64,000 nt of DNA, taken from assembly GCF_026210795.1 (NCBI RefSeq), contig NC_089448.1, positions 3,100,001 to 3,164,000 of the forward strand. The letters are read 5' to 3'. The notes under the pieces are model-generated. The model was not told the origin of the DNA and made no database searches. It worked only from the letters and a program-made list of their open reading frames with translations. Both the position numbers and the translations under genes were made by a program. Below are positions 22,205 through 45,069 of the stretch, piece after piece. Every line of letters starts with the position of its first letter. Position 1 is the first letter of the stretch. The stretch is from Rhizophagus irregularis. Taxonomy: Eukaryota > Glomeromycota > Glomeromycetes > Glomerales > Glomeraceae.

Positions 22205-25200
22205 TAAACAAAAGAAAAAGAATTATATCTGTATTTGTATGTCTTGATATTATTATATGCCTTCCAAATTACCCTATTTCCTTCCCTAATAAACTGATTT
22301 ACATATTGCCTTGTTTTTTCAAGAGCAATTGACTACTGTTCATTGTGTTTGAGAATTCTCCTTCCCTTTAAATCATATGTATTACCTTCTACTTGCTGAG
22401 TTGGAATCCTTTCATATGTAATACGTTGGTTTACTGGTATTTTCTTCTTTAGGTCTTTCTTCTTGATCCCTTTTGTATGTTCCCATTCTGTTACCAGGTT
22501 ACAACATGATTGCCAAATGATTCTATAAAATTCGTTAATAAATATTTCTAAAAACAAAGTAGTAATTGTTAGTGTAGCTTTTTCTGACTTAACAATAGAC
22601 TTGAATTTTCTATATCTTTCTTTTGGAAAGAAATTTCTTAACATCAGATGTATAAAAGGAATGGGTAATTCTTGATTAGAACATGTTATATGAATAAAAA
22701 AATTCCTATTTCATAAAATTAATCGCTGTGTGTCTTCTTGATTTAGTTGTAAGTGATTCTCTTGTGAAAGCAAGTCTTTAAGCATTTGGTCACATTTATG
22801 TTTAGTATTATTAGCCACCATTAACCATTTATCCCTGAGCTGCTGGCAATAAATTAAGTGATCATTATCTTCATTTTCTTCAAGACACATCCTACACTTT
22901 ACATCTCCATATAGATCATATCTCCTTTCTTTCATAATCTCTAAAGTTGGTAGTAGATTGTTTGTAAGTTTCAGATGTTTGATGAAATTGTTGTTTATTG
23001 ATGACATTGTACAGTTGAGTCCTGTATTTTTTAAATAATGCCCAAGTGACTTTCTCTTCTATTATATGAGTTGTATCTTGAAAAATTGTTTTGTTTACAC
23101 AATTGAAAGACCATGCTGCCTCTAATGCCGCTTCACATATGTTATCTATAAATTTTCTAATGTGTCTGTCAACTCTGTTACCATCCCAGTATAAATCATA
23201 TTTTAAGTCTTTTTGTTGTGAGTCCTTAATTGTAATACAAGTTAATCTTTCCATAATATTTTTGGCCACTCTGTCTGCTTCTTCATTGCCTTTGATTCCT
23301 AAGTGGCCTTTAACTTTTATTTGTTTTAACTCTAAGTGTTTGCTATCAATAAGATTAATTATACTACTAATTATACTGTAGTTGTTAGTATTATACCATA
23401 TACATATTTTATTTTTTCCATTTGTTAAATTTATTCTTGTATGGTTGATACTATCTATTGCAGTTTGAGAGTCTGTGAGGATATTTACTCTCTGTCCTGT
23501 TTGTAAGACAAGTATAGCTGATAGGATGGCTCCTAATTCCACGTATATAGATAAAGGCGATTCTGTGATTGAACTGCTACATTCTAATATTACCTCTTCT
23601 TTGTCATTTAGTATCACCCATCCTGTGCCCATATGTTTTGTAAAGGTGTTTAGATTCACATTAAACTGGGTTGTCATTGAGCCATCAGTATATATGTTAA
23701 TCACATCAGATGGACTAAACAGTAATCTTAATTGATGCAATAACACTATATGTTGTGACACAAATTCTCTGTTTGATAACGTATTCTGAATAAGAGCCGT
23801 ATCATAGTTATGTATTTGTATGGAACTAGGTATCCATTCTGGGATATATTGTCTCTCTTGGTGATTTCTAGTTTCTATTATATCTTTAATAACTTTGGTG
23901 TTGAGAGTGTTTTGACAACTAGAGATTCTGTTTATGCAGGTTAGATCCAATCGATCTCTATTAAAATAGCAACTATTACTTTCTTTGTTAATTCTTTTAT
24001 CATTTAATGTGCAGCCATTGCAACGTTGTATTACTATCGCTCCATTGTCATCACTCTGGTTGTTATCTTTGATAGCCCAGTGTTGCATTAGGTATTTCTC
24101 TGGCTGCTCTTTTTTTTTGATTTGTCCTATTACTAGCGTATAGTTTTGTTGTGTGTATACGAACTCCTTTTTTCTGCCATCTACCCTATAAAAAATAAGT
24201 GTCCGGAAATTGTCCAGAAATTGTCCGGAAAATTTGTCTAAATAATTGTCCGGAAAATGTCCAGAAAATGCCAGGTACCATGTCCAGAAATTGTTCCGAA
24301 AACACACTCGTTTCCGGACACTCATTTTGTCCAGAATTTGTCCGGAAATTGACCTGAAATATTTTTTCATAAAATTGGCACAAAAAGATGATCAACAGGT
24401 GACCATCATTATAATTGCTTTTAACTTAAAGTTTTATATCATAGATATATAGTATTTTTGCCTGCTCAGCAAATTTAATTAGTATGACAAAGAAGGTTAT
24501 GAATGTCAGTCTTGTGCTTTTTGCATTTTTCTACAAAATTAATTTATCCTTTTTTGGAAGTAGCGTCCAGAATTTGTCCAGAATTTTTTCATGTCCGGAA
24601 TTTGTCCAGCTCAAATTATCTGAATTTTTACTATGTCCGGAATTTGTCCAAGTTTATCTGTCCGGAATTTGTCCAAAATTTTATACTGGACAAATTCTGG
24701 ATATATTCTGGACAAAGTCCGGATATGTCAAAATTTTAGGTATCAAATTTGTAGCAGAAAATAGACATTTTCCGGACAATTTCTGGACATGCCAGATTTA
24801 TTCTGGACAATTTCCGGACATTTTCGTAGACATTTTCTGGACATTTATTTTTTATAGGGCTATAGATGGAATTTCTTTTATTACCTTAATTGCCTGCATA
24901 TTAATTAAAATTTCTCTGTCTCTTTCTGGCTCGCTTCTTGAGTTTGAGGGTCCCATATTTATTTTGCACAGGTCTTCACAGGTCAAAATGCTAAAAATCG
25001 GCTTGGAAGTAGAACGGCATTTATGATGTATATTGCCTACGCATGAGTTATGTGTTTGCGTCTAATGGCCCCTAGTATTGTCAAAATTTCCTTCTTCACT
25101 ATTAATTCTGTATGTTTGTTTCCTTTGTCTGCCTTAAACAATACGCCCAGTATTCGTAATAGTTCTGAACCTTTGTTAGCAAACACTTTGTCTTTGTTTT

Positions 25201-26690
25201 TTCCTATTTCGAGGAATCTTTCATTTTCATTACTGTCTTCTGGGTTTACGATTATGATTTTGGATTTTTCTCCATTTATTTTTATATCATTAATGTCAAA
25301 AAATTCATCAGCGATTAATGATATCTTTTTTGCTTCATCTTTACTTTTAGCTATCCATTGTGTATCATCTGCATATGCTGAGGTGGCAGTTCGTATCATT
25401 ATACTTCATTTCTTATTGCAAGACACATTATTCGGCCATTTCAGTTCCATTATATATCCTAGTGATTTGTCTTCTTGTATTCTATGGAGTAAGGGATCGT
25501 AAAATATTCTCCATACAAGGGGGATATCACCTCGTCTTGGTCAATACCATCATGCACAGTGAAGGTATCTGTTAGACCGTATGCCGTGATGATTCTCATC
25601 TGACAGTTCCTATATATGTTTATAATGAAGTTGATGATGGTATGTGGTAGTTTAATCCTTTCCAAGGCTTTTTACAAGAGGATTATTCTGACGCTATTGA
25701 ACGTCTTCACCATGTCCTGAGATACGATCCACAATGTTTTGTTTTCTTCACAGGCGTCCTTTAGAATACCGTTGATTATGGTGAGAGGAATTGATGTTGA
25801 TTCGCCCGGTAAGCCTGCATAGTTTGGTCCTTTTAAGACTGCATATCTATTGAGTATATTACCTAGGCGCTTTGTAATAATCTTAACTGCACATTTGCGC
25901 AAACATTCAATCAAAAGGATTGGTCTCATTCTTGCCAGGTTGTAATCCCAATCGTATGTCTTGGGGATCAGATACAGTTGAGATATTTTCCATTTTATTG
26001 GTATGTCCTGTAGGTAATAACATAAACCGGTGTATTGCCTAAATAATTCATTCACTTTAACACCTGCTTTCTTTATTAGTTTGTAGCTGATGTTTGATAT
26101 ACCCAGAGCTGATTTGTCATTGATAGTGTTGAGCATCTCATTCCATTCTTGTTCTGTCAGTACATCGTTCAAGTGATCGTAAATTCGCAGGTCAATGTCA
26201 GCTTGTGGTTTGTATATATCTTTCCATTGTTCAGGGAGATTCTCAAATTTGTGATTTCTTACGCGAAATAGTGATGAAAATGTATTAATGGCCTCTACTT
26301 GGACTTCATCTTTTGAATTTAGAAGGATTTCCTCCTGTGTGTCTGCGATTATGCGAATTCTGTCCAGATCAATTTTGGAGTATTTTTTGTCTAATATATT
26401 ATTAATCATTTTCCGTTGGTCTTTAGTAATCATCTTATTCCTTTCCTCAATTCTTCTTTTTATTGTTGCTTCCTTGCATGCTTTGTCTTTCACCTTAATC
26501 ACCCTTCTGACTATCTTCAACCATTTTCTAGTCTCACTTTTCCATGTGTGCCAATCCGTGCCTTCTGTTAATTGAGAAATATTTGTTCTGTAGCATTGGT
26601 TAAAAGATTTGATCCCTTCCGATGCCTTGAGTAATTCTGTCCCATTTAACTCATTCTTGTATAATTTTCTCATTAAACTCCTTATCACTG
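22205..26690 (-). pseudogene. Decayed LINE (non-LTR retrotransposon): RT, RNase H, zinc knuckle
   Basis: Read from 26690 downward. A basic pre-RT region is followed by reverse transcriptase with motif A QDMVKTFNSV (about 25700), a motif B-like GIDQDEVISPL (about 25520) and motif C AYADDTQWIA (about 25370). An RNase H domain follows (23.7-23.2 kb) with YTDGS, VELGAI, TDSQ and GNEEAD, so its acidic residues are all present. A CCHC-like knuckle CRMCLEENEDNDHLIYC lies near 22880 and a tail runs to about 22205. Frameshifts break it near 25670, 25450 and 22950, and a stop falls near 22333. A 676-bp MITE interrupts it at 24184-24859. The domain order suggests an I/Tad-like clade. The 5' end is missing. 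It cannot move itself. Confidence 0.85.
24184..24859. mobile_element. CCCTATAAAA-ended MITE inside the LINE (676 bp)
   Basis: The ends CCCTATAAAAAATAAGTGTCC and its near-complement are flanked by the 3-bp duplication CTA (24181-24183, 24860-24862). Removing the insert with one CTA restores the LINE frame (IPSIDGRKK). The subterminal 250 bp on each side is an array of GTCCGGAAATT and GTCCAGAATTT motifs pointing inward. Three-base duplications suggest PIF/Harbinger-like mobilisation, but no transposase is present. Confidence 0.85.
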
Positions 26691-28119
26691 GTCAGAATAG
26701 TCCATTTCGTCCAAATTTCAAATTGACGAATGTTGGATGAAAGTTGGTCTAATTTTGGCCGATCATTGCCAAAAAAATCGTCAAAATTATTATGGACGAT
26801 TTGCACAGTTTGCCTGCCACTTGGCAATTACAAATCGGCAAAAATTCATTGAAAAATCGGAAATAAACTATTCGTCAGTCATTTGTCCAAATTTCAAATT
26901 GCTGAATGTTGACAAAATTGAGTCTAATTTTGTCTAATTATTAACGATTTTTATGTATTTAGCTTATTTTTAATTTTGTAATAGCAATCAATTACATATG
27001 GGCTGATCCTTGGAATCTAATTTTTTTACACAAAAATAATTTTATTAAAGCAAATATAAATTATCATTTATATAAGAATAATAAATTTATACCAGATAAT
27101 GCAAAAAAAACTAATTAATTATATAATTTTTAATTTTTTTTTAATATAAGATATCATTAAAATTTAAAAGATCAAATATAACTCTCATGACAAAATCATT
27201 GATAATTCTTCGTAGAAATAAGCTATACAAATAAATTTACATTCATTTGAAAGAGAAAATCGAGATCTATCTAATGAATTTAAAATCAAGTGAATTGAAT
27301 CACTAGTTGTTCAGTAATCACGTTCAATATATTATTGAATTTTATCTAAATTTGATCATTAATTACTTCACATATAGTGATTCAATTTGAATGATCTTTG
27401 CTCCCTAAGGTGATGCCAACTTTTATCTTTAAAATAAATTTAAAATAATTCGTTTAATATATGTAGATGTTTAGGAATCATCAATTATATTATTAATATA
27501 AAATTTTATAAGTTTGATAAAATCTGATATAAAAAAATTTATTAAATACCTGTAGATGCAAGCTACACGAATGAAATTATATTCATTTGAAAGAGAAAAT
27601 TGAGGTCTATCTAATAAGCCTAAAATTGAATGAATTGAATCACTGGATTGTGAATAATTACGTCTAATATATTTATTTTTAATTTTTAAATTTGATTTGA
27701 CTTTGATCGTTAATTACGCCTCATCCAGTGATCCAATTTTCCTGATCTTTGATTCTTACGATAGAGCAAATTCTCAGCTTTCAAATGAATGTAAAATGAT
27801 GACGTTAGCATATCTCCAGGAATAATAATGCACGATTTTGTCACCTGCATAAAGTCCGATCTGAAAATTTTATTTCTTACCAAAAAATGCTTTCATAAGA
27901 GAATCCCAAATTCTTTTACTTTATTCAAAAGATTTTATTTGCCATTTAAGGATTTTAGTAGAATAAATCTAATAAAATAATTTTAAAAGATAAAAAACAA
28001 ATATATAATTAGTTATTTTGAAAAAAAAAGAATATCTTATTATTCATTTTACAACTATTTTACATCATAATTATTTTTTATTTGCATGTATTTTTTACAA
28101 AGAAAAAACAATAAATTAA
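26691..28119. other. AT-rich spacer with diverged repeats
   Basis: No gene seen. About 26705-26940 contains two related stretches with GTCCAAATTTCAAATTG, perhaps ends of a small element. About 27180-27440 and 27545-27800 are diverged tandem copies sharing ATTTGAAAGAGAAAATYGAG. Each copy is a foldback around GAATTGAATCACT and its complement. Confidence 0.45.
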
Positions 28120-28494
28120 AGGTATTGTGTATCACGTGATAGTTTCATATTGATTGACATGGCAAATTTTATATTATATAGTAACGCAAATTTCTGTGCA
28201 ATAAAAACTTTTGTTATACTTAATATAAAAGGATAAAAATTATATGGTTAGAAAGCCACATTTTCGAACTTTGTCTATTGACTTTAAAAAATTTTATTCC
28301 TTAAAAAAAATTTTCAAAAACCCTCATATGAAATTGCGAATAGGAATATATGATTTTGCGAATAGGCAATCTTAAATTTTATTGGTTATTTATATTAAAT
28401 GTAACACGCGGTGATATATAAAATGTAAACAAATGATCGGCAAAAAAATTTGCCATACAATATATATTTAAAAATCACGTGCTACACACTACCT
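28120..28494. mobile_element. TTAA-flanked MITE (375 bp)
   Basis: The ends AGGTATTGTGTATCACGTGAT and the complement of AGGTAGTGTGTAGCACGTGAT lie between two TTAA tetramers (28116-28119, 28495-28498). TTAA duplication is characteristic of piggyBac and Kolobok transposons, and an AGG start fits both loosely. No coding sequence is present. The interior is AT-rich with weak inner symmetry. Confidence 0.8.
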
Positions 28495-29090
28495 TTAAAG
28501 CTAAAAATTATGAAAAAATATGTCTTATCTATGTATATAAAATATTAAGTTTTTTCTTTTACTTACCACTTAAAAATAACTGCTATATTTGCTTATAAAC
28601 TTTTTTGTCATATTTAATAAAAGTGAATAGAAAAATGATGGAAAAGTGATGGGAGTGATGGGGAAAAAGAAGTGGTTATTACTGTTATTTTTGAATATTG
28701 ATTAAAAAAATTTTTTTTATTTTTTATTAAATCTGAGTTACGTAAATATGTAACACATATTTAATTTAGATTTGTGTAATGTTAATCTTACTAAAACATT
28801 AAATTTTTATAAAAATCTTAATTTAGACTAATTCCAAAAATCGGCACATATGAATTATATTTTATTATTTCGCTTTATTAAAAATTACATATTAAAAAGT
28901 ATTATATTAAATTTCTAATATCTACAGTATCTGTCTATTTACACCTACTATCTACCATCCACCATTCACCATTCATCCATCGTCAATTATCGTCCACATT
29001 CATCGTCTACTACCCATCATCTACCATCCATTGTCCACCATTGTCACCATCATCCACTCATCCAAAATTATCTACAACTCACTCAGCTAT
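28495..29090. other. AT-rich spacer and CATC/CACC minisatellite
   Basis: No gene seen. About 28940-29065 is a pyrimidine-rich run of CATC, CACC and CCAT tetramers. On the minus strand it follows the last exon-like unit of the adjacent array. AATAAAG and AATAAAAT lie further on (28860-28885), so it could be the 3' untranslated end of a transcript of that array. This is inference. Confidence 0.35.
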
Positions 29091-31330
29091 CTGACAAAAG
29101 TCCGAAAGAGAAACCTACAAAAAAAATAAAGAAACGGTTAGTAAACTGATTCTTTAATAAAAAAAATTTAAGTTTCGAAATATTTCGAAACTTACCCAAC
29201 CAAAAATTCGAAGTGGAAACTTACCCATATATCCAAAGCCCAACCGAAAGTAAAAACCTACAAAATAGAAAAAAAAATTAAAATAAAATTTAAAAAAAAA
29301 TCCTTTTTTAAAATAAGTTTCAAAGTTTCACTTCGAAACTTACCCATATATCTAAGACCCAACCGAAAGTCGAAACTTACAAAATAGAAAAATAATCAAA
29401 AATAAAATTATTTTTTTTAATAAAGTTTCGAAGTTTTACTTCGAAACTCACCCGTACATCCAAAGCCCAAGAACTGAAAGCCGAAATCTACAAAATAGAA
29501 AAAAAAATTAAAATAAAATTGAAAAAAATATTTTTTTTAAAAAGTTTTGAAGTTTTAACTTCGAAACTTACCCATATATCCAAACCAAGAACCGAAAGCC
29601 GAAATCTACAAAATAGAAAAAAAAATTAAAATAAAATTGAAAAAAATATTTTTTTTAAAAAGTTTTGAAGTTTTAACTTCGAAACTTACCCATATATCCA
29701 AACCAAGAACCGAAAGCCGAAACCTACAAAATAGAAAAAAAAATTGAAATAAAATTAAAGAGTTTCGATTCTTTTACTTCGAAACTCACCTATATATCCA
29801 AACGTCCAAGAACCGAAAGAAATCTACAAAAAAAATATTAAAATAAATTAAAAAAAATATTTCTTTTAAAATAAGTTTCGAAGTAAACCCACCTATATAC
29901 CCAACGCCCAAGAACCGAAAGAAACCTACAAAATAGAAGAAAAAAAATTGAAATAATTTTTTTTTAAAAAAAAGTTTCGAAGTTTCACTTCGAAACCCAC
30001 CTATATATCCAACGCCCAAGAACTGAAAGAAACTTACAAAATAGAAAAAAGATACAATTAAAAAAAAATTTTGTTTAAAAAAAGTATAAAGATTCGTACT
30101 TACGAATCTTTATTTAGGTATTCTGTTTTTCGGAATTCCACCCGAGACACCCGAGACCTAAAAAAAAATAGAAAAAGAACGGTTAGAAACCGTTCATAAT
30201 ATTAAAAATAAAAAATAAAATATCAAGATTCATGGTTACTTACGAATCTTGATTTTTTGTTGTTTTTCGGAACTCAAAACCCCACTGAACCTAAAAAAAA
30301 ATAAATAAAAGAACGGTTATTAGTAACCGTTCATTAATAAAATTAAAAAAAACAAAAAAAATTAAAACCAAGATTCGTATATACTTACAAATCTTGGTTT
30401 TTTTCCGTACCTACAAAAAAAAAGAAACGATTAGTAAATCGTTCTTTAAAAAAAAAATAGTTTCGAAAAAAAAAATTTCGAAACTTACCTTTGGGATTCG
30501 GTATCCAAGTAGAAGCCGATTTCCCTATAATTAAATATAAAAAAAACGTTTATTTTAACGTTTTTTTTAATAGTTTCGAAGAGATTCTTCGAAACTTGCT
30601 TTTGGGATTCGGTATCTATGCCAGAACCGATATCTCTACAATAATATAAAAAAAAACGTTAGGAATTAACATTTTTTTATTAAAGTTTCGAAAATTCTCG
30701 AAACTTATCTTGGGATTCGGTATCCATGCCGGAACTGAATTCCTATATAAAAAATATTAAAAAAAACGTTTTTAGCATTAAAAACGTTTTTTAAAGAAGT
30801 TTCAAAACATTTTGTTTCGAAACTTACCTGAAATATCGGTGCCCACATTGGAGCCGAATTCCTATACAAAAATAAAAAAAACGTTTTAGTTAAAACGTTT
30901 TATTAAAGAAGTTTCAAAACTTTAGTTTTAAAACTTAAGTGGAATATCGGCATCCACATTGGAGCCGATTTCCTATGCAAAAATAAAAAAACGTTTTAGT
31001 TAAAAACGTTTTATTATAAAGAAGTTTCGAAACTTTCAAAACTTATCTGGAACATCGGTATCCATGCCAGAGCCGATTTCCTGCAAAAAAAAAACAAAAA
31101 AAAAAAGTTTTTTATGTTAGAAACGTTTTTTTTAAAAGAAAGTTTCGAAAGAGTTTCGAAACTTACCTAGAATATCGGTATCCACGCCGGAACTGATTTT
31201 CTTTGCAAAAAAAAAATAAAAAAGAAATGTTTTTTAGTTAAAAACGTTTTTTTTTTAAGAAAGTTTCAAAACTTTTCGAAACTTTACCTGGAATATCAGT
31301 ATCCACGTCGGAACCGATTAAACAAAAAAA
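29091..31330 (-). repeat. Tandem array of about 20 exon-like units with hairpins
   Basis: On the minus strand each roughly 110-bp unit reads: pyrimidine tract and acceptor (CTATTTTGTAG or TTTTTGCAG), an island of mostly 32-36 nt (47 and 54 nt in two units, 22 in one), a donor (usually GTAAGTTTCG), then a hairpin. In most units the donor itself lies in the hairpin stem or loop. Two families exist: a 29.1-30.1 kb set related to the island TTTCGGTTCTTGG...GGATATATGG, and a 30.5-31.3 kb set related to ATCGGCTCC...GGATACCGAT. Most islands are open in all three frames. No known protein is recognised. It may be an expressed micro-exon locus or only a minisatellite with splice-like motifs. The array's 5' side ends about 50 bp from the CACTA element. 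Confidence 0.65.
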
Positions 31331-33225
31331 CTATTTCGAGAAAAAAAGATTTTTTTTTTTCGAAATAGTTTAAACTATTATTTACTAGTCGAAATAAGGC
31401 AAATCGGACATGTGATAAATCAGCTGAAAATCAAACTAAATTCAGCTAAAATTCAGAAAATTTACACAATTTGGCATTTCCGATTTATAACAATCAGAAA
31501 ATTTACACAATTCAGCATTTCTGAATTTATAACAATCAGACAATTTACACAATTCAGCATTTCCGATTTATGGCAATAAAAATTTGACATTTAATTTAAA
31601 ATTAGCATATGATAAAATCATTAATTTTGGCTGAATTTTAATTTTTGCCAAAATTAAGACCGAGTTTCGGTCTAATTTCAGCATTTTCAGCATTTTCGGC
31701 ATTTGAACTTTAATTAAAGTTAATTCTTATCCTCCCAAACCCAATAAATCTGAATAAATCATAATAAATATAATAAATCATAATAAATATAATAAATCAT
31801 AATAAATTTGACATTTAATTTAAAATTAGCATATGATAAAATTGTTAAAGTTAATTCTTATCCTCCCAAACTCGATCAAATACCAATAAATCCGGATAAA
31901 TCATAATAAATCCAGTTTTAATCTATGAATTGACAAATAAGAATCTATTAGCGAATATGGTATTTTCTATTTATTTGATTTACGGCTAAATACTCTCTTG
32001 CATTCCTTTGGTCTGAAATTCGGTAATTTATTGGAATAAATCGACTAAGAATATAATGAACCGGAATAATACAATCACGTGACTCTTGATAAAATTCGGC
32101 GCACCATAGCTCAATATTACAAGTATTAATGTCATTATTACTGCTGAAATAATATCGAATATTTCTAGAGCCTGCATGTTTATACCATCGGACATAAGCC
32201 AAAAAATGCTCGGCAGGACTATTCGGAAGGTCAACTGTATGAGTAAAATAATATTGAACTTGACCAGGGTAAATGTCAACATCATCGTCAATTATTATAA
32301 ATTTTGCCGTAACAAATGAACTTTTCACATGATGAGATGACATTTTTGAGCCGAATATTTCAGAACCAATTCTGCATCTTCTGAATTGATTCATTCTGAC
32401 GCGAATAATAATTGAATCTTCAGGTCCTTCTCCAAATGGTTTTCGGAAGTTATTTGCTGGGTAGGTCGCATTATAATAATCTACCATTATGTCAAGCATT
32501 TCACTTGACATTATAACTTTTTCCGAGGAAGGGCCTAGCATTTCTCCTGGAAATGCTTCGCATCCAGCAATTGGAGATTCTTTAATATTTTGCGAGTATA
32601 GCAAATATCGCTCCATTTCAACTGAAGTAAATTCGTCGGGTTCTGAAATTGAACTGACTGAAGGTCTGGTATCAAGTATATCGAGACCTTTTGTATCAAC
32701 TATTCCAGAACTAACAATATTATTAATTTGTTTATCGTTCATAATTTGGCGCATAAGCTCTGGTTCAATTTTCCAATGGCTATTAGGCAAAGAACCTAAA
32801 AAATAAATAAAGGAATGGAATTTAAAATTAATTTTAGAAGAAAAAGGATATTTTTAGAAGTCAGCATCTTACCTAGCACGCCATTCATGCACTCGAACGA
32901 AAAACACCAAAAAGCGTAAAGAGGCCCAAAATCTTTTGCACATTCGTATAAATGGAGCGAAAGGTGAAAGTTCGGAGTTATCATATCTTGACCGTAATTT
33001 TGCTCAATTATTTTTACGATTTCAACCAATTTTTGGTGATCTTCATCCATTAAATTGGATTGAACAATTCATCCTACCAAAATCGAGCAAATTCTTACAA
33101 AGCGTGTAAGAATCTTCTTATCTACGCCAGGAAGGTGTTCCAAAGTGACATCGTGGCATAAATGTTAAAAAATATTCGCCACTGATCGGCCGTAAAATTC
33201 GCAAAACCTTCGCCACATTCCACCT

Positions 33226-34203
33226 TGTAATAACCGAAAATACGATAATATAGAATAAGGATAAATAATTAGTTGAATATAGATGCTGTCGGAATTCCCT
33301 AATTACGACATTTCGGCATTACGACATATGTCGTAAATAATGCCGTAACCGTAATGTGGCGCCATAATTAATCATGATCACGTGACTTTTACAAATGCTA
33401 AACGATCGACATGAATATTTCCTTTTTTTGGAAACTCGTGTAACCTTGTGCAACCCATTATTCAATTTTATTGAGGGACAAAATTTCCTTTTTTGGAAAT
33501 CTGTGTAACGTCACGTGATAAACGCGAAAAAAATTGACCCAGCATTACGAACTTGACTGAAATTAAGTTTAGTCTTATTCATTTACGGCATATATATTTA
33601 CGACATTATGGCGTTAAATTCAATTACGGCATTACGGCGTCACAGTGTTTACGATTTACAGCATTTAATTACGGCGTTACGGCACGTGCCGTAACCGTAA
33701 AAATAATTCCGACAGCATCTATATAGTTGAAGGATAAATAATTAACCGATGGGTAAATAATTAGCCAATAAAATTATATTTATAGTTTAGTTTAGTGTAA
33801 CGAGATAATTATATGATAATAGATCTTCAAATTTTATTAGAAAAATAGAAGTATTAGAAATATTTTTTCTTAAAATGTATAAATACAAGTGGATTTCGAT
33901 AGAAATTCTGCAGTTCAATTTTTGAAAAATAAAAATTTTATTTCGTCCTTAATAATAAACAAACACATTCTTTTAGCCTTTTTCTTATGAGCAAAAAGTG
34001 CCACATTAATTATTTTATTTTAATTAATGGTTTATTGAAAATATAGAGAAACTATCGTAATTTAAAATTTTGATAAGAAATAATGTTTTTGTAATTTTTG
34101 TAATTAATTTTTATTTAAAACCAAGTATAGATACTATACGAACTCAACACGTCAGTGGCAACATACGATATTTTACTTAATATCCTATAGGTGGCGTGTC
34201 ACA
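33226..34203. mobile_element. Probable solo LTR inserted in the CACTA transposase
   Basis: The insert begins TGTAATAACC and ends GTGTCACA, with the 4-bp duplication ACCT on both sides (33222-33225, 34204-34207). Excision with one ACCT restores the transposase frame GKVECGEGF exactly. TGT...ACA ends with a short duplication fit a solo LTR of about 524 bp once the nested MITE is removed. No internal retrotransposon domains are present. Related sequence lies at about 14530-14765. Confidence 0.65.
33278..33723. mobile_element. hAT-like MITE nested in the solo LTR (446 bp)
   Basis: Terminal inverted repeats TATAGATGCTGTCGGAATT are flanked by the perfect 8-bp duplication TAGTTGAA (33270-33277, 33724-33731). 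The interior carries arrays of ATTACGGCATTACGGC-type motifs in both orientations. It is the youngest layer in this stack: MITE within LTR within CACTA. It has no coding capacity. Confidence 0.85.
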
Positions 34204-36220
34204 ACCTTTCCCAGGATCCTACATATGTCAGCTGGTACTTGGAATTGATTCATTTTCTTTTGAATTTCTTTTAGAGTTTCCGGTTTTAATATATTTTCAT
34301 CAACCCAAATCCACTTAACAATCCACTTTGCAATGCCTAAGAATAGGCAGTGCATTGGATCAATTGATAAAAACCGAATTGGGTCGAAATATAGCAATCT
34401 CAGCAATTCAGATCACCTTACGCCAGTAGTTTTTACAAAGCGATTCCTTGCAGCATTTGAATTGCAGCGACGCCATCCAAGGGCATTCTCGCGAAATTGT
34501 GCCGAATCTCGATTAATGAACCATTCGCTTATATTATCCATTCCAGCGAAATTATGTTTATGATTTTCGTAATTTGCTTTCTTCTCACATCTATAACACG
34601 ATGAAAGGGCTGAAATATGCCCACATATTTTTCTTGCCGCAGGAATGTCGCACAAAACGAGTATTAGTGCCGCTTGAATTTTTCTTAGTTCTTGGTACTC
34701 AAAAGTGTTATCAAACGTCACTCCGTCCCAAAGTAACACTAATTCGTTGACAATTGGCGCCAAATAATGGTTAATTTGGTGGAGACTCACTTCATTTGGG
34801 CCGGGCAACAAACCAAGAACCAACATATTTTCACGTTTAAACCGCATATCCCGTGGTAGATTACAAATTGCGGCATATATTACTCCGGTACTATGGATAA
34901 CACCATCATATGGTTGAAACCAGTCGAGATTCAACATTAAACCAAGATTAGAATCAGCTACTTCAGGTCGAAAAAATTTCACCGAATTTTCATCGCTTGT
35001 TTCTTCCAGACCTGACCGTCATAGATATCAGTTAAAATATTGTCAAATCGTTTGCGTTCAGACCAGTGACGTAAATTTCTTTCGAATCCCGGCTGGCAAT
35101 ACATTGATGCTAATTGATTTCTGATACTAGCAAATGGAAATATCTTCTCAGATCGAATTTTAATACGGCCATGTAATAACATTGATCTTTCTGCTAAAGG
35201 CGTCTGGCATTGTTTTAATCTCCTAGATGTCGAATTAGGAAATTCGACATGACTACACTTCATAACTGTAAGATTTCCATTTTGCTGAAATTCTTTTACT
35301 TCCTTTTTATTATATAATTTGTGGCATTTCAGACATGCCGCAAAGTTATGATGTTGATCTTTTAGCCCAAGAACATTTCTTGCTAAGTATAAAGAGCCAG
35401 GAAATTCTTCAAAATTAGAACCGCCGATTTCTATCGATAACAGCTTTATGAATTGAATAAGCGCTTCTGTTGCTGTTTCTGGAATATTAAATCTTTTGCA
35501 AAAGCTCATTATTCACAGCAAAATCCACAAAAATTGTCTATTGGCATTTGTGTCTGGACTAATTCGATCTTGAAATTGCTCATAAACAGGTGGGGCATAA
35601 TTCTCAAAAATTTCAGTATACTCATAATCATTATTATTGCCGTTATTGATTTCACTTTCATTTGATTCTTCGTCAGTTTCATTCGATTCTTCGTCAGTTT
35701 CGCTTGATTCTTCATCAGTTATGAATAATTCTGGAGGAATTTCTTCTTCGGTAATTGTTGCTTGTTGATTTGCGTATCTTCTCGAACGTTGTCGATGAAG
35801 TAAATCAGTTAATAAGTCATCTATTTCCTCCATTTCCATTTGTTGAATTACGTTCCGATTATTATCTGAATCTTCGTCAGATGATACTGGGTTATCTTCT
35901 GGTAAAGGATTACCATAATCTTCAGATGATGATGGTAAAGGATTACTATAATCTTGAACAACTTCCAAATCTTGGTCATCATCCAAATCTCGATCAGCCT
36001 CATGGTTCAATTTTGTACGAACATCTACTATTTTTCCGTTACATTTAGAACAATTGCAAGGAACCATTCTTCTGTCATGTGTATGTATAATCGAAGTTGA
36101 TTCTTCAGATTCTTCATCAATTGCTCTAGAGATCGCTCTACTTTTACGAGAAGAGCGAGCTGTAATTGATTCTTCATCATTGCTAAGTAAAGCAGAAACT
36201 GATCTCTTTCGTCTACTCAT

Positions 36221-36709
36221 TTTATGAAATAAAAAATTTGCAGTATTTATCTCAATATATTTTTAAATAATGTCAATTTAATTCTTTTTAAAAAGTAAAT
36301 TCCTGCTGCGCTACAAATCGAACAAATTCAATTTCACATTATAAATCGCCATAATATGTTTTCAATTATTCAATTAAGATTATTTTTTAAAGAACAATAT
36401 AAAAAATTCGCCATATAATCAAAGTAATACATAGGAGTTAAATTAGATCCTTTTTTAAAGAATAATATAAGAAATTCGTCGTATAATCAAAAGAATAAAA
36501 AAGATCATTTAATCATTTAAGGGATAAATTTAATTGTTAAAAATTTTTAAGGAATCGACGGTAAATACAATATCATGATAATTTGATTGTGATTAAGCTT
36601 ATAAGAAAAAAATTAATTCGACTGATTTTAAGCTATAAAAGTTTAAATTTTGAATTTTTTCTCTCTCATCTCTCTTTTCTTTCTCTTTCTCTTAATTTTT
36701 TACTTTCAC
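36221..36709. promoter_or_regulatory. Divergent promoter region of the CACTA element
   Basis: This 490-bp AT-rich region separates the two head-to-head genes. On the plus side TATAAAAG (36634-36641) is followed by a C/T-rich leader before the ATG at 36710. No clear TATA is seen on the minus side. Short repeats AAAAAATTCGCCATATAATCAAA occur twice (about 36400 and 36470). Confidence 0.45.
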
Positions 36710-39258
36710 TATGTCCCAACAAGAAAAAAAAAATTACCAAAGTTTATAAATATCCATCTGAAATTACTCCTACTACCATCACAGCCACCACTAGCAAAAG
36801 CGCTTCTGAAATTCCTCCTGATGCCACCACTAGCAACGAAACTACTCCTGCGCCTGCTACCACTAGCAAATCGACCGTTACTTCAAAATCAAAATTTCAG
36901 CATATGAAAGAACAATATAAAAATTTCAAGGTTCCAGATTCCTATTTAGAAAAGCAAAAGGAACTTCGCCATAATTTAGACCTTGATGATGATAATCCAT
37001 CTTTGGAAACTGGTATAATTGTAACAAAATTGCTAAAATTGGTTGCTGTTTTGGTTGCTTTACATTGAAAGTTTGTTTGTTTCCGAATTTGGTTAATAAA
37101 TTTTAGAAAATCATAAATTACGTGCGACAATAGCCGATTTGCGTAATAAAAACATGAAGTTGGAGAAAACAAACGTAGATATTTTTAAGGAATTAAAAAG
37201 CTTAAAAGAGGATTTCAGTACGCTTATGGAAATTAACGATGCATTCGGTACAGAAATGAAGAATTAAAAAGAAAAATCAGAACAAATGAGATCGATGATA
37301 TCGAATCCAAGCATCTTTCCAAAAAAGCCAAGGGCAAAAGAAGCGTAGTCCAAATAAGTGACGATGACGATAAAGACGAAGATGTTGATGACGACTTGAT
37401 GGATTCCAAATCGAATGCAACTGAAGAATCACCCGAAAAGCCTAACGAAAGAGAAGCAAGGGTTTGTTGAGTTTTAACAATCATATTTGATACTAATTTT
37501 TGCAACTGATTTCAATACTAATTTCATCTTTTACGACAATTTACAAATTTTTATTAATTTAACACAATTCATATACTACTAACTTTACGAATTACTAATT
37601 TTTTACAAATTTTTATTAATTTAACGCGATTCATATACTAACTTTTACAAATTACTAATTTTTTACAAATTTTTATTAATTTAACGCGATTCATATACTA
37701 ACTTTTACGAATTACTAATTTTTTACTAATTTAACGCAAATTCGTATACTAACTTTACAATTACTAATTTTTACTAATTTCAACACAAATTCGTATACTA
37801 ACTTTTACGAACTACCAATTTTTTATTAATTTCAATAACTAATGTTTTTGGCTCCACAAATTTATACTGAATTTTCTACTAACATATCTGTTTGTTGCTA
37901 ATTTTATTATTTTATAATACTTTCTTTAATTTTTCTTTTTCTAAATATCAATTAGATCAAAATGAAATCAATCTTAAAAACACTTAATGAGAAATATAAC
38001 TTAAACTACAATGAAACGTTTAATAGTGCAAAAAACATTAAAATTCAACGTAAATTAATTCCTGAAATCTGAAAATCACTTGCTCTGAATTATCGACCAT
38101 CCTTTAACCAGGTAATAAGGTGGTTAAGTAGCCTACATAAATCTCGACGATCTAAGTTGAGTTTGAGGATATCCGGCAAAGAAAGCATGGACAATCGATG
38201 AGTTCATGCCAATAATAGATTAAATGATGTATGTAATGTAATCCAGCGGCAAATTAATAATCCATATTAACTCATTTTAAATTTATCAATCAGAAAAAAT
38301 TGCGAAGGATAAAGGCTGCGAAAGATCTCTTTAATAAAAAGGATAGCCGAATTATGAGTTATGGAAAACAGGATCTGTTAAAAATTCTGGCAAATCGTGT
38401 ATATCATTCACCAGAAGTGAGTGAAACCGAAGATGAAGGTTCAAAATCGGTCATTAATGTTTATGATCTATTGTGGCGCTCAGAAGAGGTTAGGCTGCTC
38501 CAATTTAATAGTTTGTTTAATGTCCTAACTTTATATAAAAATTGAGGGGGGGGAGGGGGTCAAATTAAGTAAACATTTAAAAATAAACATAGTTTTTTCT
38601 TTATCACTCAATGCATTCTTACTAAAAATACATCTTAATTTATTACAGATAATGCAATTAATAAGTTTACATATATTACTTTTATTAATTATACCATTTT
38701 CTTTGGTAGATTCAATTACACTGGAAAGGAATTCTTTTAAATATTATACAGATCGGTGATGTTATTATAAGTCATGTGATATAACATATGTTTGTTTATT
38801 TTTAAAAATTTTTTAAAAATGAGGGGGGTGGGGTACGTTAAACAAACTATTAAATTGGAGTGGCCTTACTTATTTTATCTTGATAATTTATTTTGCTATA
38901 AATTTTCACTAATTCCGATTTTACTTATTTTCACTAATTCTGATTTTACTTATTTTTACATTTTCCGATTTTATTTATTTTTACATTTTAGTTGAGACTT
39001 TTATTAAGAAATGTTCTCGATAAATATGTAAGAGTGGGACAAACGGCGCAGCAATTGCGACCTCAGAACTATGACAACGAGATACAATGCTATGATAAAG
39101 TACCATTGGATGATGCTCCCGATTGGTCATATGTTGATCAACCAGATATGGTATATGACACAGAATATACAGACGATTTAAATATTGATGATGAAGATTT
39201 AGACGCAATTTTGGAAGATAAAGCGGATAAATCTGAAAGTTTTATGCAAGAAGATTAA
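36710..39258 (+). pseudogene. Decayed accessory gene of the CACTA element (coiled coil, SUMO-interaction-like motif, acidic tail)
   Basis: Likely exons are 36710-37012, 37107-37461, 37956-38228, 38294-38488 and 38992-39258; the last three junctions keep phase. It starts MSQQEKK, then has a Pro/Thr/Ser-rich linker, a coiled coil (KLRATIADLRNKNMKLEK), a basic cluster followed by SVVQISDDDDKDED (SUMO-interaction-like), a basic stretch (HKSRRSKL) and a very acidic C-terminus. No DNA-binding family is recognised. Breaks: a one-base slip in the A-run at 36725, a one-base loss near 37247, and two in-frame TGA codons in exon 3. Its position suggests a TnpA-like helper, which is inference from CACTA biology. 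Confidence 0.55.
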
Positions 39259-39785
39259 TGGTTGGAATTTCAGAATTCTATTTTATTACTAATTTACTCT
39301 TTTTTTTTTATTTTTGTGTATTATAGTATGTTTTATTACATATCTGAATTAATTTTACTCTTTTTTTAGTTTTGCGTATTATATATTATATTTTATAGCA
39401 TATATAAATTTATTTTACTCTATTTTTTTAATAATATATTTTATAGTATATCTGAATTTATAAATTGAATTGTAATTGAATTATATCTGATTTATATCCA
39501 ATTTATATAATAAATTTAGTTGATTTATGTCTAATTAATAGTGTCGAATTTAGTAGTATTTGTTGATTTATATCCGATTTATATCCGATTTCTTATTCTG
39601 AATTATATCTGAGTGGCAACCACTCAGAACCCAAACGGAATATTGCCTTTTTAAAAAATCGGTCAAAATTGAGTTATAAATCAGATTAAAATCAGATGAT
39701 CGATTTCTATCTGATTTGGACAATTTTGACTAGTGATATTAGATCGTTTACTAGATTAGTGGCTGATTTGTTAGAAAAAGTACAA

Positions 39786-40530
39786 TGGTCTGGGGTTATT
39801 TTGGCAATACGTTAATAGCCTTAACAAAGGACATTGCTTATCATTTTCCACTAATGATAAATTCATATATTTTATAAAATGTTCAAATAATTTATTACCT
39901 ACCATAGACAATCTTAGGAAATGGAACGAACTGTATAATCAAGTCAAATGTCCAATGTGCTTACATGATGATGAAGATATCTGGCATATTGTTATATGTC
40001 CAGGTCATGAAGATGGTTTTCAGCAGGTTGAGTCAGAAGTAACATCCAAGATTATGAAATTTATTAAGAAATCCACATCCTCAACAAAGATAGTACAGGG
40101 ACAGTTAGAACATATTATCTTTGAATATAAGGACGAAGCTTTCCCTCTTCTTAAAGAACGTAACCGTATTGAACTCATTAGAGGGCTTATCTCAGATACA
40201 ATTATAACAAAACTTCAACGTTTCTTGTCTAAAAAAGTAACCAATGAGGTTGTCAGTAGAATTATAAAACATTTCCACAAGGCTTTCAGGAAGTACATAT
40301 GGAATCCGCTATGAATTGAATATATTTGAAGCTAAATTGGGCATCACTAAAAAAGACAAGACGAATACTATTAGAAGCCATTCGTGTTCTATATCTTAAC
40401 AACTTGACATACAACAGACACATGGAACACTGGATAAAAATGAACTTTTGCATGAAACTATGACACGTTGCAAGAACTATATCCATTCACTTATAACAAA
40501 AGGCTCTTCACAATCATGGAAAACATAGTC
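39786..40530 (+). pseudogene. 3' fragment of a second LINE
   Basis: The frame reads FIKCSNNLLPTIDNLRKWNE then the zinc knuckle CPMCLHDDEDIWHIVIC and a tail (ITKLQRFLSKKV...IIKHFHKAFRK), matching the region after RNase H in the LINE at 22.2-26.7 kb. After 40315 the match continues in another frame (NWASLKKTRRILLEAIR) to about 40530. Only the 3' end is present, as in 5'-truncated LINE copies. The knuckle residues are intact but RT and RNase H are absent. Confidence 0.7.
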
Positions 40531-40548
40531 GCAGTATAGTAGGTCCAT

Positions 40549-42082
40549 TCCTATAAGAAATATGTATACGGAAAGGATACGTTTTGTATACATTTTATGT
40601 ACGTTTTTATAGATTCCGTATACAAATTCCGTATATTTAATAAGCAATTCATTTTTGAACATTTTTTAAAAAAACTAATGTATACGGAAAAAATTAATCA
40701 TGCTGAATGTATACGGAATTTTTAAACTTAAGATAATTTTACCCATCATAACACGAGATCACGTGATTGTTTATTGATTTGTTATGATACGTTTTTTGTT
40801 TTTTATATAAACCCTTACTTTGATGAGTTTGATCTTCTGTTCTTCCTTTCTGTCTTTCCTTTCCTTTCTCTTATCTCTTGTCTTAATTTTTGTTATTTTT
40901 TCTAAAATTTTCTTCTTTCTTCATCACCCCCTTTTAAAAAAAAAAATTTTTTTTCGTACCTCACTTCAAAAAAGTTTTTTTTTCGTCACTCTCCTTTAAA
41001 AAAAAATTTTTTTTCGTCACTCTTAAAAAAAAATTTTTTTGATTTTATTCTTTTTTTCCCACTCTTCTTTTTTCTTTCTATTTCTATTTCCTCTTTATAA
41101 AAAATTTTTTATTTTTCTAACTTTGATGTCCTCCTTTAAAAAAAAATTTTTTTTAACTTTCCTAACTTCGTTATCCCTCTTTTTAAAAAAATATTTTTTT
41201 TGATTTATTCTTTAATCTTTATTCCCCCCTTTTTTATTTATATTTATCCCTTTTTTTATTTCATAGACCAGCAGATTTTTTTTTGTGAGAAGATTCAGTT
41301 TTCTTTTTTCTTTTTTGTAGATCAGTTTGGGAGTTCCTTTTTGTAGGATGGTTCAGGATTTTTTCTTTTTTTAGGTCAGTTCAAATTTTCTTTTTTTTTT
41401 TGTAAGTTGGGTTCAGATTCTTTTCTTTTTGTAGGTTGTTTCAGTTTGTTGCTTCAGAGTCTTCTTTTTTTGTAGGTCAGTTTTGGATTTATTTTGTTGT
41501 TTTGGTTTCTTTTTCATCAGACGCTTTATAATTCTTTTCTTTTACGTAGGTCAGACATTCTGGAGTTCTCTTTCTTTTTTGTAGGAATGCTAACCTTTGG
41601 TGACTTTGACGATTGCAGATACTATATGAGGGGGGTTTTGTTTCCAATTAAGTTAGACGTTCTTATGTTTCTTTTTTTTTATTTTTTAGGTTGTTTGACT
41701 CCAAATGAACCTGAACTTATAGATAATTTTGGTTGCAATAGGTGGTTTTAATAAGGAGGGATTTTTCATAATGTATTTGTATTTTGTTTATTTTTTATTT
41801 TTTATTTAATTTAATAAAGTAAAATTAGATTTATGAAAATACAATTATAGTAAACTGTAATACAAATAGTAAATTCAGTGACCAAATCGTATAAATTTCG
41901 TGATAAAATCAGTGATCAAATCATGTAAATTCCATATGAATCCCGTGCAAATTCTGTATCCAAACTATATTTTTAGTGATACGGAATTGTGCATTTTTCC
42001 GTATCCTATTATGATACGTTATTTCTAAGGAAAAAAATCGTATAAAAACTTTATAAAAAACGTATCCAATTTTTTTATAGGG
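40549..42082. mobile_element. CCTATAAg-ended element, 1.53 kb, with GTATACGGAA arrays
   Basis: The left end is TCCTATAAGAAAT and the right end is TTTTTTATAGGG, flanked by the 3-bp duplication CAT (40546-40548, 42083-42085). The ends resemble the 24184 MITE. The subterminal parts are filled with GTATACGGAA or its complement. The core (40800-41760) is a T/C-rich run with repeated TTTTTTGTAGGTCAG acceptor-like motifs and a TATATAAACCC box near 40804. No protein is recognised in any frame. Confidence 0.65.
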
Positions 42083-42085
42083 CAT

Positions 42086-42565
42086 GATCACCCTTGCATT
42101 GATTACAGGGCCCTTGGCTAAGAAAATATATTCCACATATGTTTACCTGTATAGCATAATAGATCATTTGACAGTGCACATGTGGGTATTTTAATAATAT
42201 GACGAGCGGTTTATAAATTAATAATATTAGTTTAATTAGGTAAGTTTAGTAATTTTATTATATATTACTTTAATTATTTTAATAAATTTATAAATGTGCT
42301 GCGATTAAAAAAAAAAAAAATATAATTAAGTAATCAATTTAGGGTCTAATTGATTGATATTTTTATGCAACTAAATGTTTTTGTTTATCCAACTTATTCC
42401 AACTTAATTATAAAATACAAAAGAATATAAAAAAGTTGAATTTAATACATAAACTAAAGAATTTAAATCTAAATTTTTGTCCTTAAAATATAATAGTTAA
42501 CCCAACTGAAGCTTTGGGTTTTCCATAGTTCTGGTTTACTAAAGTTCTCCATTCCTATAATATAA
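42086..42565. other. Left flank of the K2 block
   Basis: No gene seen. The last 85 bp (about 42480-42565, ending CCATTCCTATAATATAA) is homologous to about 555-625 downstream of K1. It is therefore the detached distal end of the K2 duplicated block, separated from the rest (47284 onward) by the Helitron. Confidence 0.6.
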
Positions 42566-42841
42566 TCTATATAATTAAAAAAATTGTGTTTGTGTGACTA
42601 ACGTTTAGATTAGCCTATATAAATAATCTTTGAATTGTTTAATGTGTTATTAATCTGCGCCTCTGCACTTGACCTATTACGTTCTGTTTGATATATACGT
42701 TGTTAATTACTAATGTTGTATAACATTTGGTATAATCTATTAATCCTGATCTACCCTTAATAGTTAAAACCACCTGATCGGCAAATTCATTCTAATTACT
42801 AACGTACGGGAGAATTAATTTTGATTCCCCTTTCACTAATA

Positions 42842-45069
42842 TAGAGGTATGCTCTGAATCTGGTCAATTTGGATATCTGGTCATCCATCCGAAATTTGAC
42901 CAGATTCGGATTGATCCGGATGATTCATCGGATTGACCGGATGGATCATCAGATATCCGGTCAATACTTGCTCACCAATTTGACCGGATGGTTGACCAGA
43001 TATCTGAATAATCCGGTCAATCCGGTGAATCCGGTGAATCCAAATTCAGTTTTTTCTACTTAATACTTTTTATTAATATTAATTAACAATTAGAATTTTA
43101 TAATAATAAACATAGTATTTATTTTTACGTTATTACAAATGATTTTTAACAAATTAGTTGATACAATATTTATAAAAAGTTTAAGATTTAGAGGTCCAAG
43201 AAGGTGTCTCCCTAAAAAAAAGAAGCAAAAGGAACGTTAATTACGTTCCTAACAACAAAAAAACAAAAATACCTTTCCCCCAACTTACCTTTATAGCCCA
43301 TGCCGAAATCCAGATCCAAGAGGCGTCCTCCTAAAGAAAGAAGCAAAAGGAACGTTAGTTACGTTCCTAAAGACAAAAAAAAAAGATAAAAAACCCTTTC
43401 CCAACTTACTTTAATAGCCCAAGCCGAAATCCAGGTCCAGGAAGGCGTCACCTAAAGAAAAGAAGCAAAAGGAACGTTAATTACGTTCCCAAAGACAAAA
43501 AAAACTCAAAAATAACCTCCCCAACTTACCTTTATGAAACCCAAATCCGGGAGGGCGTCTCCTAAAGAAAAGAAGCAAAAGGAACGTTAATGACGTTCCT
43601 AAAGACAAAAAAAAAAGATAAAACACCCTCCCAACTTACTTTAATAGCCCAAGCCGAAATCCAGATCCAGGAAGGGCGTCACCTAAAGAAAAGAAGCAAA
43701 AGGAACATTAATTACGTTTCCAAAGACAAAAAAACTCAAAAATAACCTCCCCAACTTACCTTTATGAAATCCAAATCCGGGAGGGCGTCTCCTAAAGAAA
43801 AGAAGCAAAAGGAACGTTAATGACGTTCCTAAAGACAAAAAAAAAAGATAAAACACCCTCCCAACTTACTTTAATAGCCCAAGCCGAAATCCAGATCCAG
43901 GAAGGGCGTCACCTAAAGAAAAGAAGCAAAAGGAACATTAATTACGTTTCCAAAGACAAAAAAAACTCAAAAATAACCTCCCCAACTTACCTTTATGAAA
44001 TCCAAATCCGGGAGGGCGTCACCTAAAGAAAAGAAGCAAAAGGAACGTTAATGACGTTCCTAAAGACAAAAAAAAAATAAAAATTAACTTCCCCAACTTA
44101 CTTTAATAGCCCAAGCCGAAATCAAGGTCCAGGAAGGGCGTCACCTAAAGAAAAGAAGCAAAATGAACGTTAATTACGTTCCCAAAGACAAAAAAAACTC
44201 AAAAATAACCTCCCCAACTTACTTTAATAGCCCAAGCCAAAATCCAGGTTAGGAAGGGTGTCACCTAAAGAAAAGAAGCAAAAGGAACGTTAATGACGTT
44301 CCTAAAGACAAAAAAAAAACAAAAATTAATTTCCCCAACTTACTTTAATAGCCCAAACCGAAATCCAGGTCTAGGAAGGGCGTCACCTAAAGAAAAAAGC
44401 AAAAGGAACGTTAATGACGTTCCCAAAGACAAAAAAACCCGAAAATACCCTCCCCCAACTTACCTTTATGAAATCCAAATCCGGGAGGGCGTCTCCTAAA
44501 GAAAAAAAGCAAAAGGAACGTTAATGACGTTCCCAAAGACAAAAAAAAACCCGAAAATACCCTCCCCCAACTTACCTTTATGAAATCCAAATCCGGGAGG
44601 GCGTCTCCTAAAGAAAAAAAGCAAAAAGAACGTTAATGACATTCCCAAAGACAAACAAAAAATCAAAATTACCCTCCCCAACTTACCTTTATAGCCCAAG
44701 CCGAAATTGAGTTCCAGGCAGGCGTCCCCTAAAGTAATGAAGTAAAGGAACATTTAGTGACGTTTCCAAGACGAAATTCAAGCCGTCCAAGTCGTTCCGA
44801 AGTCCAAGTCCAAGTCCGTTCTAAAGAAAAAAAGGTGTTTTTTTTAAAAAAAAAACATTTATGTTAAAAAAAAAAAAAAAGTTATGAATTTGACCAGATT
44901 ATCTGATCAATCCGGTCAAACCGGTCATCCATGTAACATCCGATTAATCCGATGTTATCCAACGGATCCATCCGGATTATCCGCAATCCGTTCATTCTTA
45001 ATCCGGATGATCCGTTTTTTGATCGGATCAGATGACGGATTGAACGGATTTCACCGGAGCACACCTCTA
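42842..45069. mobile_element. hAT element (2.23 kb) carrying an exon-like tandem array
   Basis: The ends TAGAGGTATGCTCTG and the complement of TAGAGGTGTGCTCCG are flanked by the perfect 8-bp duplication CACTAATA (42834-42841, 45070-45077). Both the TAGAGGTG start and the duplication length are hAT-like. Subterminal arrays of GATCCGGATGATCCG-type motifs occupy about 200 bp at each end. No transposase is present. The core is the 43.2-44.85 kb array of splice-site-bounded units. Confidence 0.9.
43190..44850 (-). repeat. Tandem array of 14 exon-like units inside the hAT element
   Basis: Units of 109-122 bp read on the minus strand as CTTTTCTTTAG acceptor, an island, a GTAAGTTGGG donor, A/T-rich DNA and the hairpin GGAACGTnATTAACGTTCC just before the next acceptor. 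Islands come in two forms: about 43 nt (ending ..GGGCTATTAAA) and about 32 nt (ending ..GGATTTCATAAAG). Where they alternate (about 43.4-44.0 kb) the pair sums to 75 nt and stays in frame, giving a 25-residue Gly/Pro/Phe/Arg-rich repeat. Runs of the long form (44.09-44.38 kb) would bring a stop unless units are skipped. Expression is not known. Confidence 0.65.

Follow-up and report, generated by a model that had tools for sequence, protein, structure and literature searches.

Within a window of 64,000 nucleotides from Rhizophagus irregularis (contig NC_089448.1, positions 3,100,001 to 3,164,000), short GC-richer islands are repeated in tandem between linkers that resemble introns, with putative splice donors lying in hairpins. 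A sequence-only reading had proposed that this locus makes combinatorial transcripts from repeated micro-exons, which raises the question of whether the array is a gene, what carries it and whether its hairpins and splice-like signals are maintained. We analysed the window together with the genome, searched over 146.7 Mb in 32 contigs.

Layout of the array on the minus strand

The array had been described as about 20 tandem minus-strand units of ca. 110 bp, and this description holds: we delimited 19 islands by hand in units of ca. 100–121 bp (array 1, Table 1), plus a partial unit at about 29196-29224, past the 19 islands. In this hand delimitation, the islands measure 22–54 nt, with 16 of the 19 in the claimed range of 32–36 nt, and their mean GC content is 0.43, versus 0.27 for the whole array. 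The claimed AG acceptor lies immediately 5' of 18 of the 19 islands. The further claim of a GTAAGT-type donor in each unit is inexact, because the donor is GT in 15 units, GC in one and lost in three, which read ATAAGT (two units) or TTAAGT (one unit). An automatic parser found 10 canonical islands in this region, at least one of them mis-parsed (29145), against the 19 found by hand.

The units belong to three sub-types that succeed one another in the order A (8 islands), B (3) and C (8), after which come the partial unit and a terminal stretch. The hairpin of A and C units is formed by AAGTTTCGAAR with YTTCGAAACTT and is opened by the donor, while the three B units present GTAAGT as the loop; the donor is thus placed within a stem or loop, as first noticed. 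The signals of spliceosomal introns (GT...AG, branch motif and pyrimidine tract) occur only in part in A units. Two of the three B islands are followed by a second hairpin that contains a CTAAC/CTAAT-like branch motif, which is absent after the last one; C units have GT, pyrimidine tract and AG, and no clear branch hairpin. Stops in all three frames in the terminal stretch, from about 29114, and an AATAAA-like signal beyond the array were also found as previously reported. At the upstream edge of array 1, 44 bp (31328-31371) match their own opposite strand at 91%, forming a hairpin.

Table 1. Coordinates of the arrays and of the mobile elements associated with them in the window
Feature	Position	Strand	Remarks
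Terminal repeat CACTGGTCAGAATAGTCCAT, end of the 3' terminal segment	26686-26705		read on +
3' terminal segment of the CACTA-like element	26686-26994	-	about 91% identity to another copy
Later insertion splitting the CACTA-like element	26995-28853		inverted imperfect ends CATATGTGCCGATTTTTGG / CATATGGGCTGATCCTTGG; foreign to the array element
Element part downstream of array 1	28850-29090	-	AATAAA at about 28874-28879; recognisable in most of 18 other copies
Tandem array 1: islands like micro-exons alternating with structured, intron-like linkers	29091-31330	-	19 islands at 29225-31322
C-type units, ...TTCGGTTCTTGGGCTTTGGATATATGG, then GTAAGT...	29225-30032	-	8 islands
B-type units	30104-30410	-	3 islands; GTAAGT as hairpin loop, exon end pairing with intron
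A-type units, ...ATCGGTTCCGGCGTGGATACCGAT...	30489-31322	-	8 islands; hairpin arms kept, donor GT frequently lost
Last array-element stretch matched by other copies	31331-31395	-	upstream of the islands
Separate transposon	31385-39735	-	tnp2-type transposase (PF02992) at 34413-35018
hAT-like non-autonomous transposon holding array 2	42842-45069	-	2.2 kb; inverted ends TAGAGGTGTGCTC / TAGAGGTATGCTC
Tandem array 2	43192-44776	-	13 micro-exon-like islands of 32, 42 or 43 nt

Transposons and other loci that carry arrays

Rather than existing at one place only, array 1 makes up the body of a CACTA-like (CMC) DNA transposon that is non-autonomous and dispersed through the genome. A genome search for further arrays of the unit, proposed with the original description, found copies at dozens of dispersed places, and DNA comparison with array 1 retrieved at least 199 matching pieces, window included; this is a lower bound, given that the searches for homologous arrays scored 40 candidates out of 735 and 40 out of 117. 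We read 18 other copies with their flanks. The 3' end ATGGACTATTCTGACCAGTG is present within four mismatches in 16 of these 18 loci, and the bases that follow vary between copies. Inspection of seven copies by eye revealed the 5' end, which begins with CACTGGTC, in five. CACTA/CMC elements (EnSpm, Plavaka) have inverted ends starting with CACT(A/G) and a 3-bp target-site duplication. Inverted ends of this type are present here (5' CACTGGTCRAAAT... and 3' ...ATGGACTATTCTGACCAGTG), and the 3-bp flanks are identical in all five two-ended copies (TTA in L019, CAT in L020, ACA in L022, GTA in L024 and CTT in L025). These five complete copies measure 3190–3813 bp and consist for the most part of the array. 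Judging by frame length, none of them contains a tnp2-type transposase, the longest stop-to-stop frame being of 165 aa; a non-autonomous element is expected to lack it, hence our label CACTA-like and non-autonomous. Array length differs between copies, and C-to-T and G-to-A differences at CG sites appeared common by eye.

In the window, the later insertion separates array 1 from the 3' terminal segment of its element, and the 5' terminal ca. 320–340 nt of the complete copies were not found within the window. The 3' end of the element adjoins a LINE-like frame (25672-26691), as if inserted into it; LINE-like open frames occupy 22333-26691, with an RNase H domain (PF00075) in 22916-24391. On the other side lies the tnp2 element, at whose end a CACTAGTC-type terminal repeat (39735) shares 16 of 19 letters with the end of the array element, and is a better fit to the tnp2 element. 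We considered, and rejected, that array 1 is part of this tnp2 transposon: at nine places elsewhere in the genome, a match to the tnp2 element ends at 31384 (query end 1217 or 1218; one of the nine is a split match), and complete copies of the array element exist without a long frame.

The window also contains array 2, whose islands were parsed by requiring both a TTTAG-type acceptor and a GTAAGTTGG donor; at both of its ends there are island-like stretches with one of the two signals missing. The A/C donor palindrome is absent from this array, which shows the donor, a TTAAC inside GGAACGT..ACGTTCC hairpins, the pyrimidine tract and AG in order. The element that holds it is flanked on either side by the 8-bp sequence TATTAGTG, and hAT transposons make 8-bp target-site duplications. 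Among 11 loci of this element read, window included, eight were two-ended, with identical 8-bp flanks in five, 7 of 8 matching letters in one and no duplication in two. The 8-bp duplication points to a hAT-like element, which would be non-autonomous if it is a hAT. It is unrelated to the CACTA-like element, yet contains the same kind of array. One copy (L040, C11:1308800-1313900) apparently lies inside a copy of the tnp2 element, with tnp2-element matches at C11:1309268-1310002 and C11:1312914-1313335 flanking it.

Genome-wide, a donor-hairpin pattern (GTAAGTTTCG N2-24 CGAAACTT) gave 688 matches, some palindromic sites being counted on both strands, and a branch-type hairpin (GGAAACGTTTCTAACGTTTCC, up to one mismatch) gave 143; controls with the reversed donor and branch patterns gave none in the whole genome. 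On contig C1 (8.0 Mb), the pattern matches formed 19 clusters at a 5-kb cut. Arrays of neither family were parsed in eight loci, with islands mostly of 21–47 nt and introns mostly of about 80–106 nt; the automatic parser placed the borders of some introns wrongly, which shows up as long "exons". They share a common plan: a micro-exon, a donor hairpin, a second hairpin with CTAAC, CTAAT or TTAAC, a pyrimidine tract and TAG. Eight loci fetched as apparently isolated matches were, by eye, also array-like. Six arrays (L003, L004, L005, L010, L012 and L016) start after a CT-rich stretch and keep their introns well, and two pairs of other arrays are near-identical copies (longest matches 94–96%, one 89%). 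For a third class of arrays (L047-L050), clean transposon ends were not shown.

Three further observations concern individual places. In L052 (1473-1975), micro-exon-like units are followed by a structured intron and, immediately after it, by a coding exon of a mitochondrial carrier (PF00153), making this locus a candidate for an array that feeds into a host gene. In the window, the plus strand at 41337-41444 has a pyrimidine tract plus TAG/AAG repeated in tandem with short spacers (CTTTTTGTAGGTTGGTTCAGG...) and no obvious donors, like an acceptor-only array. Two Sel1-repeat gene copies (2273-4214 and 49054-50146) contain long 108-bp tandem repeats and have a kinase-like frame near each.

Conservation of hairpins, splice signals and reading frames

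Prediction of RNA folding gave z-scores of -3.4, -5.5 and -0.8 for three A/C-type hairpin units and -5.8 for the single B unit folded; among introns sampled by the donor motif, z was below -2 in 40 of 40, with a mean of -6.1. For the B type, 43 distinct donors were picked by the final letters of their exon from the window, the 18 array copies and L017; their contiguous stem averages 7.9, against 6.4 when partners were exchanged (best 7.3) and 1.9 when letters were shuffled. Covariation was examined in 64 distinct donor segments out of 72, chosen by their outer arms alone. In their inner stem, 348 of 384 cells pair, compared with 309 in the best of 500 partner shuffles and 112–160 when the partner was slid by 1–3 positions; the search pattern partly dictates position 1 of the six, and the donor-hairpin pattern had served to fetch some of the loci. 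Position 11, which is free, pairs in 60 of the 64 segments by three pair types (C-G 23, A-T 31 and T-A 6), shuffles reaching at most 40. A second list took 63 hairpins from the donor-pattern matches, in which the pattern itself fixes the two outer arms; in the 38 that were long enough, 133 of 152 cells paired versus 111 in the best of 2000 shuffles. These results support that the donor hairpins are maintained as structures, with stems that covary across families.

As an ordinary intron we folded that of an AAA gene (11281-11377), which gave a weak predicted donor stem (-6.7 kcal/mol over the whole 98-nt stretch) and neither a long donor hairpin nor a branch hairpin; with one intron only this is a thin control and, this single intron having only a weak stem, it does not demonstrate that the structured form is usual for introns of this genome. 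No known RNA family reached its gathering score over 26600-45200.

A neutral minisatellite should, as had been put forward, lose islands, splice sites and linkers at the same rate, and here the outcome was split between families. The units compared are relatives of one another rather than independent samples, and well-preserved units pass the profile threshold more readily; with these reservations, a 43-nt model of the hAT-like array (H43) has the donor G in 147 and T in 150 of 150 aligned units, and keeps the acceptor in every unit aligned there (A, 136 of 136; G, 125 of 125). Mean major-letter frequency in this model is 0.90 for the exon, 0.82 for the linker, 0.93 for the branch hairpin and 0.97 for the tract; a 32-nt model (H32) gave 0.86 for the exon and 0.84 for the linker, and it matches the same units as H43 (26 matches for 13 window units), so that counts overlap and were never summed. 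Invariance alone is not rare in this family, because a frequency of at least 0.99 is also reached by 13 of the 44 exon and linker columns that are G or T. Cruder anchor scans, which allow mismatches or shifts in the anchors, gave 139 of 156 for GT and 153 of 216 for AG. In C units, the corresponding values are 0.97 for AG, 0.93 for GT, 0.85 for the exon and 0.87 for the linker. In A units, conservation rises from GT (0.71) through the island (0.79) to the hairpin arms (0.91–0.93), indicating that a hairpin can outlive the loss of its usable donor.

The signals of the hAT-like units thus outlast islands and linkers, those of C units do so moderately, and the GT of A units decays faster. This pattern supports selection on splicing in the hAT-like array, where, as in the other arrays, units combine GT...AG with a branch motif and a tract; it is moderate evidence for such selection in C units, and none is visible in A units, in which the hairpin seems to count for more than the donor. 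Searches with three patterns for retrocopied junctions between exons of the A, C and hAT types found none, and a single match to the C pattern (three mismatches) reads as an unspliced acceptor. The lack of retrocopies is compatible with splicing, since such copies need reverse transcription.

Most islands had been thought free of stops in all three frames, so that units could be joined or skipped without ending the frame. In array 1 this is the case for about half (10 of 19), compared with 2.3 expected from letter shuffles, the islands being relatives and not independent. Among 153 islands with canonical borders (automatic parsing), 42 are open in three frames (0.27, versus 0.126 by shuffling), and their lengths distribute as 68, 44 and 41 for remainders 0, 1 and 2 after division by three. 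None of the 111 hAT-like islands is open in three frames, and their lengths distribute as 43, 41 and 27. In a stop reassignment test on gap-free units (99 of 184 A units and 41 of 157 C units), 0.53 of A units were open against 0.46 under neutrality (n=99), and 0.39 of C units against 0.19 (n=41, related units), so stop avoidance is absent in the former and weak in the latter. A coding role is not supported by these comparisons for A units and the hAT-like array and only weakly hinted at for C units; no frame is conserved, and the micro-exons of the arrays look non-coding. The proposal of a gene that makes combinatorial, protein-like transcripts is not supported, as the array is a dispersed transposon body, island lengths spread over the three remainders and there is little stop avoidance.

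Possible nature of the arrays and comparison with known systems

We favour, with a probability of about 0.6, that array 1 belongs to a CACTA-like element with a cargo of tandem spliceosomal introns, which are probably spliced to give non-coding RNA, the splicing itself being putative. Each unit would consist of an apparently non-coding micro-exon and a structured intron, with the donor in or beside a hairpin and the rest of the intron often containing a second hairpin with a branch-point-like TAAC/CTAAC, a pyrimidine tract and TAG. The element would be transcribed through the array, from the minus strand in the window, and the host spliceosome may remove the introns wholly or in part, leaving a short non-coding RNA. 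Folding of donor and branch regions into hairpins could help to define, or could slow, each intron, while the arrays would grow and shrink by tandem duplication and travel with the transposon. What the element gains is speculative: its transcripts might resemble host pre-mRNA, escape silencing, or allow insertions to be spliced out of host transcripts. Only tentatively, and at something short of even odds, do we extend this to the proposition that in this one fungal genome unrelated transposon superfamilies carry tandem strings of non-coding micro-exons and self-folding introns, with covarying hairpins at the donor and further hairpins at the branch site, and that splicing of these introns by the host belongs to the life of the transposon, as a disguise, an escape from silencing or a way of being removed from host transcripts.

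Several observations could be read differently. CACTA elements carry repeated subterminal transposase-binding motifs, and the palindromic arms (AAGTTTCGAAACTT-like) might be DNA-level sites bound by the transposase or by host proteins, their splice-like look being incidental. That the arms of A units are palindromic in themselves and outlast GT (0.91–0.93 versus 0.71) agrees with such sites; however, the hAT-like array has no donor palindrome and still keeps donor, TTAAC hairpin, tract and AG in order, stems of other arrays change letters and stay complementary, which is unexpected of a fixed motif, and the arrays fill the body of the element and not its ends alone, so we regard binding sites as improbable. 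We judge just as doubtful that one exon-intron piece became a neutral minisatellite within transposons and decays without function. The decay of A-unit donors, the variable array length and the frequent changes at CG sites would be expected of it, whereas in the hAT-like family exon and linker drift around a nearly invariant GT and AG, stems covary, and the same plan recurs in unrelated families.

The well-kept introns of the six arrays that start after a CT-rich stretch, the array abutting the mitochondrial carrier exon in L052 and a similarity by eye between some islands of different families could instead mean that transposons captured, in the manner of Pack-type elements, pieces of host genes with multiple micro-exons, coding or non-coding, which would be the real functional loci. 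This is partly compatible with a transposon that carries tandem introns, and we consider it unlikely without dismissing it, in that no single-copy source gene was come across (the search was not systematic), two pairs of the other arrays are near-identical copies, and islands of several arrays are 31 and 38 nt long, among others. A family of micro-exon genes that produce variable proteins through exon choice is very improbable: the excess of islands open in three frames, in array 1 and family-wide, and the open C units would favour it, against lengths that are not confined to multiples of three, A units close to the neutral expectation and hAT-like islands that are never open in three frames.

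Pack-CACTA, Pack-MULE and Pack-hAT are non-autonomous transposons with terminal inverted repeats (TIRs) that carry exon and intron sequence. The elements described here are similar in being CACTA- and hAT-like, non-autonomous and with an exon/intron cargo, and differ in that their cargo strings similar intron units together in a long tandem row, for which no source gene was recognised. Schistosome micro-exon genes likewise have many very short exons in a row, and these exons are symmetric; they encode secreted proteins, whereas the lengths found here are not bound to multiples of three, as the symmetric exons of such genes would be, and the two families examined are inside transposons.

The SP7-like effectors of Rhizophagus share with the arrays the genus and the presence of repeated units. 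As far as their description goes, they have one conserved intron before the first repeat as a shared gene feature and no micro-exon repeats (PMC11333574), and we rejected an SP7-like effector gene on this mismatch in intron layout. Non-conventional euglenid introns, in the part of the source consulted, likewise have RNA secondary structure near the intron ends (PMC4770533), whereas the borders here are mostly canonical GT/AG and the structure consists of two local hairpins, at the donor and in the branch region. Within the parts consulted of the open literature, preprints excluded, we found no description of tandem intron/micro-exon arrays in transposons (among others, PMC11075540, PMC9860276, PMC8786786 and PMC10234402). 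According to the sections seen of one of these, the genome of R. irregularis is rich in transposable elements, about two thirds of them unclassified, and has about 40 Argonaute-like genes (PMC11075540). Elements with intron arrays may account for part of this unclassified annotation. Should the introns prove to be spliced, transposons would be able to transport and multiply whole intron units as tandem series, which would bear on the origin of introns and micro-exons, on the handling of hairpin-embedded donors by the spliceosome, and on how a genome rich in transposable elements and Argonautes tells its own transcripts from those of transposons.

The arrays also resemble fungal introner-like elements and symmetric stwintrons, which, in the portions consulted, are described as multiplied spliceosomal introns with inverted repeats or a stable predicted structure (PMC8469720; for introners, PMC9860276). 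Introner-like elements are described there as integrating singly and seamlessly into gene exons, those of Hypoxylaceae without a reported short flanking duplication (PMC8469720). The arrays here are instead tandem, separated by micro-exons and located inside TIR transposons with duplications of 3 bp or 8 bp, and the eight apparently isolated loci, too, look array-like by eye, so we do not count them among introners. In all, our results suggest a kind of mobile element made of tandem, hairpin-folded introns whose splicing is putative.
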